This document shows positions 32,406-38,598 of a stretch of 64,000 nt of DNA, piece by piece. A program made the position numbers and the translations under genes. A model generated the notes under the pieces. It ran no database searches, was not told the DNA's origin, and saw nothing but the letters and a program-made list of their open reading frames with translations. The stretch comes from a bacterium (lineage in GTDB: Bacteria; Cyanobacteriota; Vampirovibrionia; Obscuribacterales; Obscuribacteraceae): NCBI GenBank assembly GCA_018062085.1, contig JAGOSY010000002.1, forward strand, positions 186,001-250,000, in the 5' to 3' direction. How positions within the stretch are numbered: position 1 is the stretch's first letter; every line of letters begins with the position of its first letter.

Positions 32406-32873
32406 TTAGCGCTCTTTCACCGCACCCGCCTGATCTAGGTCGGCATTAGCGGCTAGGCGATCGTTGCGCTGGCGCTGGGCCAAGGGAGTGACTCGATCGG
32501 CCTCTGCAATCTCATTCATCTTGGGCTCAGCTGCGGAATTGTCTTTCACTGAAGATGGCAGATTTTGCTTGTCGGCTGGGGTTGTAGCTTGATTAACGTC
32601 GGCATTGGCGGCAATGCGGTCCAATCGCTGGCGTTGAGCCAAGGGTGTCACTCTATCAGCTTCAGAAGCTTCGTTGAGCTTGGGCTCTCTTCTGTCTGAG
32701 GAGGCGTATATGTCTTGCGCTCCGAAATCAATGGAACTTGCTTCGGGGCGCCCTTTTGCTGATTGTTGAAGACTGCCGAGTGATTTATCAGAATAAGCCT
32801 CAGCAAATACCCCATCAAATTTAGTAAAGCTTTGCGACTCAGCAGAGTTGGCTTCAGCGCGTTCTAATGTCAT
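32406..32873 (-). CDS. Hydrophilic protein with an internal duplicated motif
   Basis: The 155-residue protein is charged and without signal peptide or membrane segment. ATG 32873 follows GGAG at a spacing of nine. Two copies of a roughly 34-residue unit (about 64-97 and 115-149) share E-P-K-x-N-E, E-A-D-R-V-T-P-L-A-Q-R-Q-R and D-R-x-A-A-N-A-D, so the repeat is an internal duplication. The residues between and before them are Ser/Gln/Asp-rich. I recognise no family. A 43-bp promoter-like element shared by four genes here lies about 70 bp upstream. Confidence 0.65.
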   Translation of the reverse strand: MTLERAEANSAESQSFTKFDGVFAEAYSDKSLGSLQQSAKGRPEASSIDFGAQDIYASSDRREPKLNEASEADRVTPLAQRQRLDRIAANADVNQATTPADKQNLPSSVKDNSAAEPKMNEIAEADRVTPLAQRQRNDRLAANADLDQAGAVKER

Positions 32874-32941: not shown

Positions 32942-32984
32942 AATATAGAGCAGGTAAGTTGGCAATCTGGGGTCGTAAAGATTA
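32942..32984 (-). promoter_or_regulatory. Shared promoter-like element, copy A (upstream of 32406-32873)
   Basis: Read on the minus strand, it has TAAT, four bases, then a half-site TACGACC (consensus yTGACCC), four bases, TTGCCAA, and a -10-like TATATT starting 11 bases after the second half-site. Invariant columns match copies B, C and D without gaps: TAAT, GACC, TTGCC and CC. The -10-like end lies 68 bp before the gene start. Confidence 0.6.
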
Positions 32985-32985
32985 C

Positions 32986-34182
32986 TTACGTGGGCGAAAT
33001 TAGTTCGCCATCGAAGTAGATGCCGCGCCAGACATTGTTATAGGCATACATCTGCCAGGCGCCTACGGTGCGGTTTCCGTTAACTACGTTGTTGAAAGCT
33101 CTGTGATCGCTTCCACCTAGAATGCCTGGGGGAACATTGTTTCCTGTTGGGTAATTGATTTCGTTGTTTGAGATCTCGATGCCGCTGCTGCTGTTGCCCT
33201 CTACCATCATGGGCGAAGACGACCACTCATCAATGGTGATATCGAGATGGTTGCGGCGAACCGTGAGATTTTGACTCTCGAACATGCTTATGGCATCTGA
33301 TTTGTACAGGCCTGTGACTTTGTTATTTTCAATATTGCCGCCACTTACGTGGTCAAATTCTACGGCAGTTGTGTCGTAATGCTCAGACCACCTGAAGTCA
33401 TGTAGCCAGTTGTCTTTGACTGTGACATTGGATGAGCGATCGGCTAGGATTCCGCGCTCTCCCCCTGTAACCTCGCAACCTTCCACCACTACATTGTTGG
33501 CGCCATAAATGCCAACCGTTGGCCCATCCAGGCCTTTGATGCGGGCATTGCGGATGACGACGTTATCTCTTGTGATTGAAAGCGGTGGTATTTCATCGCC
33601 TCTCGCGTCAATGACGAGCATGCCGTTTTCATATGAGGCATAGCGCTGTAAGACCTCAGGAATTGATCCGTCTCCCAGTTCTACTCGCGCTCCACCTTCA
33701 AGAGCCGAGCCTTCATGCCATTCTTGAGGTGCATCGACTATTGGTTGATACTCTGGAGCAGGTTCTGGTAGCGGTGCTGGGGCATCATCCGCTATTTCAG
33801 GTATGTCTACTGGAACATCTATTGGACTTTCTGGCGTCACTGATTCTGGACAGTCGCCACTCCCGGCTGCTGTTTCCGGGCATGGTGGAGGGCTTGGCTG
33901 CTCGCAGTCTTGCTCACAGGTCGGCGTTGGTACTGGCTCGCAGTCATCTCCCCGACCCTCTTCCCGACCATCTCCCAGACCTTCAAAGCACTGATCTAGT
34001 TCGAGGGTTGGTAAGACCCCTGAATTAACCATGCCATTGACGCAGGTCCTCAGCTGGGTAGCCAACCTTGAAGTCAGCGCTTGTATATCTTCGAATGAAA
34101 TGGAAGCTGAGCAATAGCTATCAGTGTTTGCGAACGAAGTATCACAGCTATCAGTCTGTTCCATGCGGCAATTTGAGGTCAT
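32986..34182 (-). CDS. Cytosolic-looking beta-helix protein with Cys/Pro-rich N-terminal region
   Basis: ATG 34182 follows GGAG at a spacing of eight; the frame extends 11 codons farther without an SD. The 398-residue protein has no signal peptide. Residues 1-150 are Ser/Glu/Pro-rich with about ten cysteines, many in P-x-C or C-E-x-D-C patterns. From about 200 to 385 the sequence forms a right-handed parallel beta-helix of the pectate-lyase type: NVVIRNARIKGL, NNVVVEGCEVTGG, SNVTVKDNWLHDF, GNIENNKVTGLYKSDAI, NLTVRRNHLDI. Such domains bind or cleave polysaccharides or act as surface proteins. Catalytic residues are not evident. It carries copy B of the shared element upstream. Confidence 0.72.
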   Translation of the reverse strand: MTSNCRMEQTDSCDTSFANTDSYCSASISFEDIQALTSRLATQLRTCVNGMVNSGVLPTLELDQCFEGLGDGREEGRGDDCEPVPTPTCEQDCEQPSPPPCPETAAGSGDCPESVTPESPIDVPVDIPEIADDAPAPLPEPAPEYQPIVDAPQEWHEGSALEGGARVELGDGSIPEVLQRYASYENGMLVIDARGDEIPPLSITRDNVVIRNARIKGLDGPTVGIYGANNVVVEGCEVTGGERGILADRSSNVTVKDNWLHDFRWSEHYDTTAVEFDHVSGGNIENNKVTGLYKSDAISMFESQNLTVRRNHLDITIDEWSSSPMMVEGNSSSGIEISNNEINYPTGNNVPPGILGGSDHRAFNNVVNGNRTVGAWQMYAYNNVWRGIYFDGELISPT

Positions 34183-34309
34183 TGTTTTAGCTCCATTTTT
34201 CTCTATTAGCCTCAAGACTGCTGGCTAGCCAACTGGTTAGTGCCAGTCTCAGTTTCAAAACTTCGTCACGATGTTGCTTGTCTGTTGGTAAGGTGGTCCC
34301 GATGGCGCT

Positions 34310-34352
34310 ACTTTACTAAGGGCTAGTTGGCAAACCGCGGTCAGTGTTATTA
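34310..34352 (-). promoter_or_regulatory. Shared promoter-like element, copy B (upstream of 32986-34182)
   Basis: Minus-strand reading: TAAT, four bases, CTGACCG, four bases, TTGCCAA, then TAAAGT as -10-like hexamer 11 bases after the second half-site. It lies in the divergent region between the beta-helix gene and the histidine kinase gene, 127 bp before the beta-helix start and 128 bp before the kinase start, so a bound regulator could influence both directions. Confidence 0.6.
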
Positions 34353-34480
34353 GATTGATCGTTTGCTAATTAGCATGTTGGCATCGTTGACTATTTGGCT
34401 TGTTGGCTTGTCTGTGCACTATCAAAACCGAGGCACAACTGATTTAATAGTGCTCGCTGCGGAAGCTTTAGGTCGGCACT

Positions 34481-36340
34481 TTGAAAACCCTGAAAATCTC
34501 TCAAAAATTTTTGGTTGCAGTGGCTGTACCTGTAGTATTTGAGCTTGTTCTTGTCTCTGTTCTCTTTGTCTTGTTGTGGCAAGCCGATGAGGCCCGAGCG
34601 AGAGAACAGCAAGGTCGTGAACTTGCCAATCGTGTTTACGCGTTGATGGGTCTGCATGTTCAGCGAGTGACGCAGATCATGCTTTACAAGAGTACTGAAC
34701 AGCCTGAAATGTTGGGCCAGGCTAGACAGACGGCTCAGAGAATGAAAGATGAGATCAAACAGATTCACGTTCTAGTTGAAGGTAACCCTAAGAGCAGCGA
34801 AACATGGAAGAGCCTCGATTCACTTGTAAGAGCTATAGGCGAAGAACACGACAGGGCAGCAGAAAGTCTGGGCGTTGGTGATAAAGCTGGTGCCACAATG
34901 CACTACATGTCAATGCGAAGGCACTTTGAGGCGCTTATTCAAGCTAGCAATAAGCTAACAGAACAACAAGCAACCTCTAAAGATGTAGAAAGTATAGATG
35001 TAAGCAAATACAGCGAAATTATTCGTATAGTGCTCTGCTTATCCATACTTCTTTCTCTTTTGACAGCTTTTGGTCTGGCTTTCTACTTTAGGCGTGGAAC
35101 CGCCGATAGACTAAATGTGATCATGGCCAATACAAAAAAGATGGCAGCCGGTAAGGCACCAACTGAAGAGTTGGAAGGCGATGATGAACTAGCTCAGATA
35201 GACAAGCTTTACCACAAAATGCATGATTCTTTAGTGATCTTCCGGCGCAGAGAACGGGCGATTCTTGAAAATGTCGCTGATGTGGTTTGCTCGATTGATT
35301 CGAGTATGCGTTTTACTGATATCAACGAGGCTGCTTACAAACACTGGGGTTACAGTGACGAAGACCTGATTGGCGGACGCTTGGCTGATATTCTCGTCGC
35401 CGCAGATCGCGACATGGTTTTGCTCTCTTTGCGAAAGGTTGCTGAAACAACTAAAGAGACCTCTCTAGAGTGTGGAGTCACACGATCTGATGGCACCGTG
35501 GCTGATACCGAGTGGTCGGTCACTTGGTCGGAGGTGGAAGGTTCACTCTATTGTGTCGTGCACGACATTACGGCAAGAAAGAACCTCGATAGATTGAAGG
35601 CCGAGTTTGTCGCCATGGTTAGTCATGAGATTCGCACACCGCTTAGTTCGATTCAGATGACCCATTCACTTTTGGCAGCTGAACTTGGTGATTCGTTAGA
35701 TGAATTTATGAAAGGCAGTTTGAATGCGGCCCAAGGCAACGTCAATCGTCTAATGGCGCTGGTCAATAACTTGCTTGATTTAGATAAGCTTGAATCAGGA
35801 TTTATTGATTTTGTCGCTGATAAAATCTCAGTTCGTGATTTGGTTGAAACATCGATTAGCGCTATCGCTTCTTTGTTTCAGCAAAAATCAATTGAAGTGA
35901 AGAGAAACATTGATCCTTCTATAATAATTTACGCTGACAAAGAGCGCTTGGTTCAGGTCTTGATAAATCTACTTTCTAATGCCACAAAGTATTCTGCACC
36001 AAAGTCTACGATTATTGTTGACGTGCGGGTAGATAAAGATTTCGTTCGTATCTCTGTTACTGATAGCGGCAGGGGTATTCCACAAAACAAACTAGACACT
36101 GTGTTTGAACGCTTCAGGCAAGTCGAAGCCGCAGACCAGAAGGTTCATAAAGGAACTGGGCTAGGGTTGGCTATTGCTAAAGCTATAGTGGAGATGCACC
36201 AGGGTAAAATGGCTGTAGATTCGGTGGAAGGCAAAGGTAGCACTTTCTGGTTTACTATTCCTGCTACCGAGAGGGTTTACAAAGCTATGGAAGCAAAGAA
36301 AACGGCGAAAGAGAGCAGCGCAAGAGAACAACGCAAGTGA
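34481..36340 (+). CDS. Sensor histidine kinase with PAS domain
   Basis: The 619-residue protein starts at TTG with an AGG-type SD seven bases upstream. Membrane helices are at about 9-33 and 181-203, with a helical outer domain between them (about 34-180) resembling a four-helix sensor. A HAMP-like stretch follows, then a PAS domain (about 258-365, ILENVADVVCSIDSSMRF), a HisKA dimer region with phospho-acceptor H382 in V-S-H-E-I-R-T-P-L, and an HATPase domain (NLLSNATKYS, DSGRGIP, FERFRQ, GTGLGLAI). The partner is the regulator 31 bases downstream. Signal unknown. The divergent region upstream carries copy B of the shared element. Confidence 0.95.
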   Translation: MKTLKISQKFLVAVAVPVVFELVLVSVLFVLLWQADEARAREQQGRELANRVYALMGLHVQRVTQIMLYKSTEQPEMLGQARQTAQRMKDEIKQIHVLVEGNPKSSETWKSLDSLVRAIGEEHDRAAESLGVGDKAGATMHYMSMRRHFEALIQASNKLTEQQATSKDVESIDVSKYSEIIRIVLCLSILLSLLTAFGLAFYFRRGTADRLNVIMANTKKMAAGKAPTEELEGDDELAQIDKLYHKMHDSLVIFRRRERAILENVADVVCSIDSSMRFTDINEAAYKHWGYSDEDLIGGRLADILVAADRDMVLLSLRKVAETTKETSLECGVTRSDGTVADTEWSVTWSEVEGSLYCVVHDITARKNLDRLKAEFVAMVSHEIRTPLSSIQMTHSLLAAELGDSLDEFMKGSLNAAQGNVNRLMALVNNLLDLDKLESGFIDFVADKISVRDLVETSISAIASLFQQKSIEVKRNIDPSIIIYADKERLVQVLINLLSNATKYSAPKSTIIVDVRVDKDFVRISVTDSGRGIPQNKLDTVFERFRQVEAADQKVHKGTGLGLAIAKAIVEMHQGKMAVDSVEGKGSTFWFTIPATERVYKAMEAKKTAKESSAREQRK

Positions 36341-36371
36341 ACTACAAAAGTAATTGTCATAGGAGGTCTTA

Positions 36372-37049
36372 GTGGCAAAGATTCTGATTATCGAAGATGA
36401 CCTGCAATTGGCATCGCTCGTTAATCGCTGGCTGACTAAAGAAGGGCACATAGTAGAACACATTCAAAATGGCGGCGATGGCTTGCAACGGCTAAGATTT
36501 GACCCCTATGATGTCGTAATTCTTGATTGGAATCTGCCAGAAGTTGAGGGTATTGATATTCTCAAAGACTTTCGCAGTAGAGGTGGTACCACACCAGTTC
36601 TAATGCTTACCGGCAAAAAAGCCATTGAAGATAAACTGATGGGCTTAGGTGAAGGCGCAGACGACTATCTCTCAAAACCCTTTGACGGGCGAGAATTGAC
36701 TGCTCGTATAACGGCTTTGCTTAGGCGCCCTGTCACCTTGCTCAGTAGCAAGCTAGAGGCCGGTGATATCGAGATTGATACCAAAAGTCATACGGCCAAA
36801 AGAGCTGGAAAAACGCTCAATCTAATGCCGAAAGAGTTTGCCTTACTAGAATTTTTACTGCGGCATCCCGGTGAATTTTTTCAACCAACTCACTTGCTAG
36901 AGCATATTTGGCCCAGCGAAAGTGACTCAACAACCGAGGCTCTGACTAGTTGTATCAAGAGGTTGAGGCTCAAGCTCGACAAACCAGATTCTGAGTCGGT
37001 CATTCGCAATGTCCGTGGTGCTGGCTATGGGCTGTTTGTTGAAGAGTAA
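36372..37049 (+). CDS. OmpR/PhoB-family response regulator
   Basis: GTG 36372 follows AGGAGG at a spacing of five, a strong SD. The 225-residue protein has a receiver domain (acidic pocket D9/D10, phospho-acceptor D52 in VVILDWNLPE, T/S switch in MLTG, K102 in L-S-K-P-F) and a winged-helix DNA-binding domain (about 130-225: LEAGDIEIDTKSHTAKR, LMPKEFALLEFLLRHPGE, CIKRLRLKL, RGAGYGLF). This class binds direct repeats with an 11-bp period next to or in place of a -35 box. Four such repeats lie within 5 kb around it (copies A-D). Confidence 0.95.
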   Translation: MAKILIIEDDLQLASLVNRWLTKEGHIVEHIQNGGDGLQRLRFDPYDVVILDWNLPEVEGIDILKDFRSRGGTTPVLMLTGKKAIEDKLMGLGEGADDYLSKPFDGRELTARITALLRRPVTLLSSKLEAGDIEIDTKSHTAKRAGKTLNLMPKEFALLEFLLRHPGEFFQPTHLLEHIWPSESDSTTEALTSCIKRLRLKLDKPDSESVIRNVRGAGYGLFVEE

Positions 37050-37114
37050 GGGGCGAATAATCAGGGTCTAATAGTAGAAGCACTAGTAATATTTCGAGCT
37101 TGAACAATTGCTTT

Positions 37115-37702
37115 TTAAATTAACTCGAGCTGTGGCAGGCTGAAGCTCATAGACTTAGAGGATGGTTTGCTGGGAACAGCAGTGCGCTCTTGCACTGGTT
37201 GTCTCCGATCACCGGGAGGGGTATAGCCAGCGGTATCGGAGCATACTGCTCGCTCAAGTCTTGAGGAACGGTTGCCACTGGTGTCTACACACCTTTCGTA
37301 TTCTTGACGTGCACGTGCTGTGACAGCTGTCTCTGTGGTCTCAGGTGCGCTTGTATAGCGGCTATCAGAGCCAATGCCTCGGTTCGGTGTTGACCGGCCA
37401 GTGGCGGCCTGCTCTCTCGATTGGCTACTGCGTGTTTGTTCAGGTGTATCGTAAATGTCTCTGCCGTTGACAACGATATCCGAAACCTGTCTCTCGCCGT
37501 TAACTGTGCGGAATGTCACCTCAGCACCGCCTACATTTCTTGTCCAAACACCAGGTGTGTTGGAGCGGGGATTGGTTCCGCCTTCCCAGAGTGTGCGAGC
37601 AAACTGCACTTGTTCTTCTCTGGTCATTTCGCTGTTGACTAGGCGGGTGATGGGTTGGGTTCCGTTAACTGCTTCTACTGCTCTCTCAACACGATCGCTC
37701 AT
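37115..37702 (-). CDS. Hypothetical hydrophilic protein
   Basis: The 195-residue protein starts at ATG with GGAG at a spacing of nine. The first 85 residues look folded (EEQVQFARTLWEGG, PGVWTRNVGGAEVTFRTVNGERQVSDIVVNG), with alternating hydrophobic beta-like strands. The rest is disordered, rich in S, R, T and Q, with two cysteines in ARQEYERCVDTSG and LERAVCSDTAG. No signal peptide. No family recognised. Copy C of the shared element ends 39 bp before the start. Confidence 0.65.
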   Translation of the reverse strand: MSDRVERAVEAVNGTQPITRLVNSEMTREEQVQFARTLWEGGTNPRSNTPGVWTRNVGGAEVTFRTVNGERQVSDIVVNGRDIYDTPEQTRSSQSREQAATGRSTPNRGIGSDSRYTSAPETTETAVTARARQEYERCVDTSGNRSSRLERAVCSDTAGYTPPGDRRQPVQERTAVPSKPSSKSMSFSLPQLELI

Positions 37703-37741
37703 ATAGTTTGCTCCGGCTAGTTATGGGTGGGTAGTGCATTT

Positions 37742-37783
37742 ATATTAGGAGGGTTGTTTGGCAAGTCAGGGTCAGTAAGATTA
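37742..37783 (-). promoter_or_regulatory. Shared promoter-like element, copy C (upstream of 37115-37702)
   Basis: Minus-strand reading: TAAT, four bases, CTGACCC, four bases, TTGCCAA, and TAATAT as -10-like hexamer ten bases after the second half-site. This is the copy closest to the consensus in both half-sites and -10. Confidence 0.65.
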
Positions 37784-37810
37784 GACCTTCTTTTGTCGCG
37801 CTAAGAGCAT

Positions 37811-38494
37811 TTAATGCCGCTTCAAATAATCTTCAGCTGCCGCTCCAACTCGTTTAAAGTAGTCTTTGACAGCCGGCCCAGGCTCTGGTTTGGCCCGGTA
37901 CATTCCGCCAGTGCCGAGTGGATCTCTGGTCTCGTTTGCTTTTCTTATGGCGTCTCTATATTCTTGGAACTGTTCATCAAGTCTGCGCTGTTCGCCAGAC
38001 GACATTTCTCTTCGCACTTGCTTACCAAGGGCGGCTTCAGCTTCTTGTACTCTTCTGTCAATTGCGTCATGCATTGGAGAGTTTGGTGCTTTAGGGTAAG
38101 GCTCTGCGTTCAAAGTTGATTTTAGTCCCCAATCTAAGACATCTCTTTTATGTTGGGTTAACGCCTTTTCTTCTGCTTCGTATTGCTTGCGCTCTTGCGC
38201 TGTCATCTGCCCTTCGACTGAGCGTTTTAGTTTGTCGCTGTATGATTCATCATTAGTAAATATGTTGCCAATTCTGTGTCGAATATAGTCAGGGCCAGTG
38301 GCTTTATATGGTGCTTCTTGGCCAAAGCCGCTCATGTCGATTTTAGGAAAGCCGAGTTTGTCAAACTTCGCTTGATCATCTGTTTCTCTGGCAAGTTCTA
38401 ACAAGCCTTTGCCCGATTTGCATTCATCAAGAAGTCTATATTGAGAAGTTATTTCGCTCTTACTGTCTTGGCAGATGTTGTCGGTCTCTCGCAT
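37811..38494 (-). CDS. Hypothetical charged helical protein
   Basis: I use ATG 38494, eight bases after AGGAG; a GTG three codons earlier overlaps the SD. The 227-residue protein is strongly charged and mostly helical (KQYEAEEKALTQHKRDVLDWG, RRLDEQFQEYRDAIRKANETRD), with no signal peptide or membrane segment. The C-terminal part is Pro/Gly-containing (DPLGTGGMYRAKPEPGPAVKDYFKR). No family recognised. Copy D of the shared element lies upstream, so it appears to belong to the same regulated set as its neighbours. Confidence 0.65.
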   Translation of the reverse strand: MRETDNICQDSKSEITSQYRLLDECKSGKGLLELARETDDQAKFDKLGFPKIDMSGFGQEAPYKATGPDYIRHRIGNIFTNDESYSDKLKRSVEGQMTAQERKQYEAEEKALTQHKRDVLDWGLKSTLNAEPYPKAPNSPMHDAIDRRVQEAEAALGKQVRREMSSGEQRRLDEQFQEYRDAIRKANETRDPLGTGGMYRAKPEPGPAVKDYFKRVGAAAEDYLKRH

Positions 38495-38556
38495 TGTATT
38501 CACTCCTGGTAAGTGAGACGGTTAGCTTTCGCTACCAACTCTTGGGCTATGGCCTC

Positions 38557-38598
38557 AATTTACAAGGGTAAACCGGCAATCCAGGGTCAGCGATATTA
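38557..38598 (-). promoter_or_regulatory. Shared promoter-like element, copy D (upstream of 37811-38494)
   Basis: Minus-strand reading: TAAT, four bases, CTGACCC, four bases, TTGCCGG, then TAAATT as -10-like hexamer ten bases after the second half-site. It differs from the others in the last two bases of the second half-site. The -10-like end lies 62 bp before the gene start. Confidence 0.6.

Follow-up and report, generated by a model that had tools for sequence, protein, structure and literature searches.

The window, a 64,000-nucleotide stretch of DNA from a 5.83-Mb genome that is 88% complete, contains a two-component system and four genes on the opposite strand. A membrane sensor histidine kinase of 619 amino acids (34481..36340, plus strand) is followed by an OmpR/PhoB-type response regulator of 225 amino acids (36372..37049, plus strand). 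The minus-strand genes encode p155 (32406..32873), a predicted right-handed beta-helix protein (32986..34182, ATG at 34182; Pfam Beta_helix/NosD), p195 (37115..37702), and p230 (37811..38494, with the ATG at 38494 as the preferred start). Upstream of each of them lies a minus-strand box that ends in a -10-like hexamer. Box A (32942..32984), upstream of p155, consists of TAAT at 32981-32984, half-site 1 at 32970-32976, half-site 2 at 32959-32965, and TATATT at 32942-32947. In the same order, box B (34310..34352), upstream of the beta-helix gene and within the region that this gene shares divergently with the kinase gene, has its elements at 34349-34352, 34338-34344, 34327-34333, and 34310-34315 (TAAAGT). 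Box C (37742..37783), upstream of p195, has them at 37780-37783, 37769-37775, 37758-37764, and 37742-37747 (TAATAT), and box D (38557..38598), upstream of p230, at 38595-38598, 38584-38590, 38573-38579, and 38557-38562 (TAAATT).

The kinase has an N-terminal sensor region with two hydrophobic segments, followed by PAS, HisKA, and HATPase_c domains (Pfam; PF00512, PF02518), and its H, N, and G boxes appear intact by reading. Orthologs of the sensor region were found in three relatives at 58-69% identity. The region belongs to an expanded family, often with more than 20 matches per genome among the family genomes. The regulator combines a receiver with a C-terminal winged-helix effector (Pfam Response_reg PF00072, Trans_reg_C PF00486) and lies next to a kinase gene, as is characteristic of the OmpR/PhoB-type class; D52, T80, and K102 were assigned by reading. 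Its closest solved relatives were 1kgs (annotated as 'DNA binding response regulator D'), MtrA (2gwr), RegX3 (2oqr), and PhoP (3r0j). Most genomes of the family encode tens of regulators with E-values below 1 × 10−40 to this protein. Orthologs were present in five of the 50 family genomes, at 73-100% identity including the window's own genome and 73-97% in the four others, and the next best protein in the set was 60% identical. The four others, like all relatives used here incomplete metagenome-assembled genomes, are 'Candidatus Obscuribacter phosphatis' EBPR_351 (G032; genome MOYA01), an Obscuribacterales bacterium (G039), a groundwater Melainabacteria bacterium (G015), and a Cyanobacteriota bin (G005). 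The recognition helix, EALTSCIKRLR, is identical across the five orthologs, and within the wider region ESDST[TV]EALTSCIKRLR the single T/V variation precedes the helix. The closest paralogs differ in this region, in line with a separate predicted binding specificity.

The first-pass annotation had described the boxes as four ungapped copies of one promoter-like element, and this description holds: the copies align without gaps at these positions, and TAAT, GACC, TTGCC, and a later CC are invariant in all four. The A/T hexamers of boxes A to D start 11, 11, 10, and 10 bp past half-site 2, respectively. The distance of 39-127 bp given for box to gene was also right, as the 43-mer is separated from the nearest plausible ATG with a GGAG-type Shine-Dalgarno sequence by 68, 127, 39, and 62 bp. 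A chance similarity has in its favor that short degenerate motifs are common: with one mismatch allowed, a pattern with the wrong spacing, used as a background control, matched the genome at more than 200 places. The short core pattern, with 38 genome matches at one mismatch versus 22 for the reversed control, was likewise uninformative. Against this, the exact pattern TAAT-N6-GACC-N5-TTGCC occurred four times in the window, compared with a mean of 0.005 and a maximum of 1 in 200 shuffled windows. In leave-one-out position weight matrices (PWMs), the omitted copy scored 25-29 bits, while the next best place in the 64 kb reached 12.6-16.1 bits, and a PWM trained solely on the related genomes gave its four highest ranks across the 64 kb to the four copies. 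Together with the held-out sites described below, these results refute chance, whose probability we regard as vanishingly small. The four copies are confirmed as real and far above chance.

The distribution of the box was examined with a sequence-only model, R1, built from 11 of 15 sites, namely those near the regulator; in each genome, the best 150 of about 3000 first-look candidates were scored. In the window's genome, the four copies had E-values of 3.5 × 10−5 to 5.9 × 10−4 (boxes A to D: 5.9 × 10−4, 1.5 × 10−4, 3.5 × 10−5, and 1.5 × 10−4), and the next match among these best 150 candidates had an E-value of 1.2 and was located inside a reading frame. The genome matches to the exact pattern agreed, with the four window sites being the sole strong ones in 5.83 Mb. 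Among the best 150 candidates per genome, R1 found 15 strong sites in the five ortholog-bearing genomes. Strong sites (at least 18.4 bits) were found in 5/5 genomes with a regulator ortholog and in 0/45 with only paralogs of 60% identity or less, which do not amount to 50 independent observations because the two genera are related. Within the same best 150 candidates, a strong site was present if and only if the genome had the ortholog, with agreement in all 50 family genomes. In the window's own genus, two genomes contained both the ortholog and the box and four contained neither. The next R1 matches in the family genomes, again among the best 150 candidates of each, scored 18.1 bits and below and were mostly inside reading frames. 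The check named in the first-pass annotation, for many matches within coding regions, did not refute the proposed regulon. One site of 18.1 bits, TAATCTTCCTGCCACCTTCTTGCCA at G042:C153:2464, comes from a genus that lacks the regulator ortholog; it precedes a reading frame of 164 aa by about 84 bp and resembles the p195 boxes of G032 and G039.

Paralogous kinase-regulator pairs of Obscuribacterales share the architecture of the pair studied here; their closest regulators are 57-60% identical and have a similar recognition helix, STREALTTCIKRLR. They differ in that genomes with paralogs alone have no strong box. A YceI gene adjoins the closest paralogous pair, and reading of its promoters revealed no such box. 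Nor does any conserved box mark or point at the promoter of the kinase gene, so autoregulation through the box is not supported.

The boxes stand upstream of orthologous genes in the relatives. The G015 locus is syntenic, and its best three PWM matches in 18 kb each directly precede a gene, namely the orthologs of p230 and p195 and a gene for a 160-aa protein. In G005, a box precedes both p230 and p195, and in G032 and G039 a box is found upstream of p195, next to the regulator. The box is thus upstream of p195 in all five genomes holding this gene, and also upstream of p230 in all five, including G032 and G039, where p230 is unlinked to the regulator. Four sites absent from R1 training are located far from the regulator and directly upstream of p155 or p230 orthologs: G039:C6:5556 and G032:C3:233887, with p155 orthologs starting about 96 bp later, and G039:C2:102720 and G032:C2:510090, followed by p230 orthologs. 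The first-pass annotation had proposed a local regulon of the adjacent OmpR-type regulator. The regulon part is supported by the occurrence of the box in exactly the five ortholog-bearing genomes out of 50 (best 150 of about 3000 candidates per genome) and by these held-out, unlinked sites at orthologs of two targets. The word 'local' holds for this genome but not strictly for the regulon as a whole, as p155 and p230 are unlinked in two relatives.

Four similar sequences within 6 kb could also be remnants of a recent duplication without a regulatory role. However, the mean pairwise identity of the four copies was 71% in the box as opposed to 24% in the upstream and 29% in the downstream flank, which is background, and therefore the copies do not represent a duplicated stretch. 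Between genera, the box is 69-81% identical and the flanks 12-33%, and two targets have kept their site after dispersal. This conservation pattern refutes duplication, to which we assign only a trace of probability.

The beta-helix gene is a predicted target in this genome only, because its orthologs in G032 and G039 (60-62% identity) have no box upstream. Box B may therefore be a recent gain beside the kinase gene, or the box may have been lost in the G032/G039 lineage. In four genomes without the regulator ortholog, the 10-17 kb around the p230 homologs contained no box of this type. Several further observations concern the relatives. A fifth box, found at L134/L135 (G032:C5:87544, minus strand; G039:C20:49967, plus strand), has in both genomes the hexamer TAGATT precisely where the -10 is expected. 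Within about 100 bp after it comes a conserved hairpin, with no convincing reading frame; the regulon could include a small RNA here, or the hairpin may terminate the converging gene. At L142 (G032:C1:2561684-2561711, minus strand), a weak box (12.7 bits), whose -10 position is occupied by TACTTT, precedes the gene of a 193-aa protein with weak similarity to p230 homologs (best E-value 2 × 10−5), a possible further member of the regulon. In G014:C4 (L085, 8856-13122), a p230 homolog without a box adjoins a different kinase-regulator pair (regulator 47%), and pairs of this kind may repeatedly have p230-like proteins as partners. A p155 relative (76%) cut by the contig start is present at G003:C109:1-240, in a 77% complete genome in which no regulator ortholog was found.

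All three of p155, p195, and p230 are hydrophilic and gave no convincing Pfam or PDB family match; profiles of p195 and p230 searched against Pfam and PDB returned nothing significant. A resemblance of p230 to T4 spackle (E-value 0.04) was not believed. The AlphaFold2 model of p195 had a pLDDT of 57, too low for a fold search. Among the genomes searched, p195 is confined to the five with the regulator ortholog, and p230 belongs to a divergent Obscuribacterales family with no known domain. The C-terminus of p155 contains a TPLAQRQRxDRxAANAD-like repeat in two copies (DRVTPLAQRQRxDRxAANAD, encoded at 32406-32650 of the window). The p155 orthologs repeat ERSTPLAxAQRxxRLA, and the 160-aa protein of G015 repeats GSPAxxxLMRR; these short repeats are possibly a repeated short binding motif. 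With one beta-helix protein and three others that belong to no known family, the set includes none of the phosphate-uptake or phosphatase genes that would indicate a Pho regulon.

Over the 15 sites in Obscuribacterales, the shared pattern is TAAT-N4-YTG[A/C]C[C/A][C/A]-N4-YTGCCAA-N10/11-TAnnnT, and the consensus is TAATCTYNCTGACCCTGGTTTGCCAANTAGCC, then TAnnnT. The 11-bp period of the half-sites (7-4-7) reported by the first-pass annotation was recovered, the self-similarity being 0.54 at 11 bp compared with 0.13-0.39 at the other offsets from 4 to 18. The p195 boxes of G032 and G039 read CTGCCAA-N4-CTGCCAA, an 11-bp direct repeat, and two 7-bp direct repeats with an 11-bp period are the layout of a Pho box. 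As a TAnnnT-like hexamer follows half-site 2 by 10-11 bp at most sites, half-site 2 occupies the place of the -35 region.

The same limited distribution of targets and regulator, and the joining of the motif to a promoter-like hexamer, could also be explained if an alternative sigma factor used the boxes as its promoters, or if they were bound by a different transcription factor, encoded elsewhere and traveling with the targets; co-occurrence alone cannot separate the regulator from such a factor, because the targets share its distribution. This explanation is improbable, as the 11-bp repeated half-site is an OmpR/PhoB-type layout unlike a -35/-10 pair, the conserved locus contains no regulatory genes besides the kinase and the regulator, and a sigma regulon would give more sites, whereas the genome has no further strong ones among the best 150 of about 3000 candidates. 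In the relatives, the box is found only where the regulator is present, even at relatives of the target genes that are located far from it, and it is thus almost certainly the regulator's own switch. We conclude, with a probability of roughly 85%, that each copy is a predicted promoter-operator of the 36372-37049 regulator, and that the genes behind the boxes would be a private regulon of this two-component system. Comparison of the sequences supports a predicted regulon of four minus-strand genes here (p155, the beta-helix protein, p195, and p230), with p155, p195, and p230 as the conserved core.

In the proposed mechanism, a signal would reach the membrane kinase (34481-36340), the presumed partner of the regulator. 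The phosphorylated regulator dimer would then bind head-to-tail to the half-sites YTGACCC and TTGCCAA, 11 bp apart, stand in for the -35 element, and recruit housekeeping RNA polymerase to the -10 hexamer located 10-11 bp downstream. We infer the binding, the positive regulation, the role of the main sigma factor, and the pairing with the kinase; activation is favored over repression only from the position of the box. Alternatively, the regulator might bind the boxes and act as a repressor, or cooperate with a second factor reading TAAT, since TAAT is invariant in 15/15 sites outside both half-sites and position alone is no proof of activation. This seems rather unlikely, as half-site 2 replaces the -35 region at a constant distance from the -10 hexamer, as in Pho-type activation, and the separate -35 hexamer required for simple repression is not evident. 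The TAAT is also a point against the proposed operator: it begins 8 bp before half-site 1, outside the 11-bp register, and the standard model with two half-sites has no equivalent of it. We tentatively suggest that the operator could be tripartite, with TAAT about one helical turn upstream as an obligatory third contact, made by another subunit of the regulator, by a second factor, or by the alpha-CTD in a sequence-specific way. If so, the box would be a variant of the Pho-box layout, one that would make the sites of the regulator nearly unique in each genome within a family with dozens of similar regulators.

In the open papers searched, no description of a regulon was found for this uncultured, non-photosynthetic branch of Cyanobacteriota. 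Here, by comparison alone, one regulator among dozens per genome is tied to an operator and to three conserved targets that are orphans in function, which yields a specific prediction of binding and an initial approach to the function of orphan protein families. The case also illustrates how the paralogous regulators of an expanded set can each retain a very small regulon of their own.

Direct repeats of the 7-4-7 type are the rule for OmpR/PhoB-type regulators, with known boxes being CTGTCAT-(A/T)4-CTGTCAT for PhoB, TCACAGC-N4-TCACAGC for PhoP of M. tuberculosis, and GTTCACC-N4-GTTCACC for PhoP of S. coelicolor (PMC4832192; PMC4415409). In the model of PhoB with sigma, the box takes the place of the -35 region (PMC3348028). 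The Pho box of E. coli PhoB thus resembles the boxes described here in its two 7-bp direct repeats, 4-bp spacer, -35 placement, and OmpR/PhoB-type regulator. It differs in its half-sites (CTGTCAT versus YTGACCC/TTGCCAA) and lacks the invariant upstream TAAT, the recognition helix of PhoB is RTVDVHIRRLR instead of EALTSCIKRLR, and the present targets are not phosphate genes. PhoP of Mycobacterium tuberculosis, among the better PDB matches to the regulator (3r0j/5ed4), also has a 7-4-7 direct repeat, bound by a tandem dimer, but differs in half-site and targets and has no reported TAAT. Among solved structures, the DrrD/MtrA/RegX3-type regulators (1kgs, 2gwr, 2oqr) come closest to the regulator along its full length, yet this is general family similarity only, and their targets and boxes are others. 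The proposed regulon is of an ordinary kind, newly seen in a poorly known group, and the comparative evidence for it is unusually clean.
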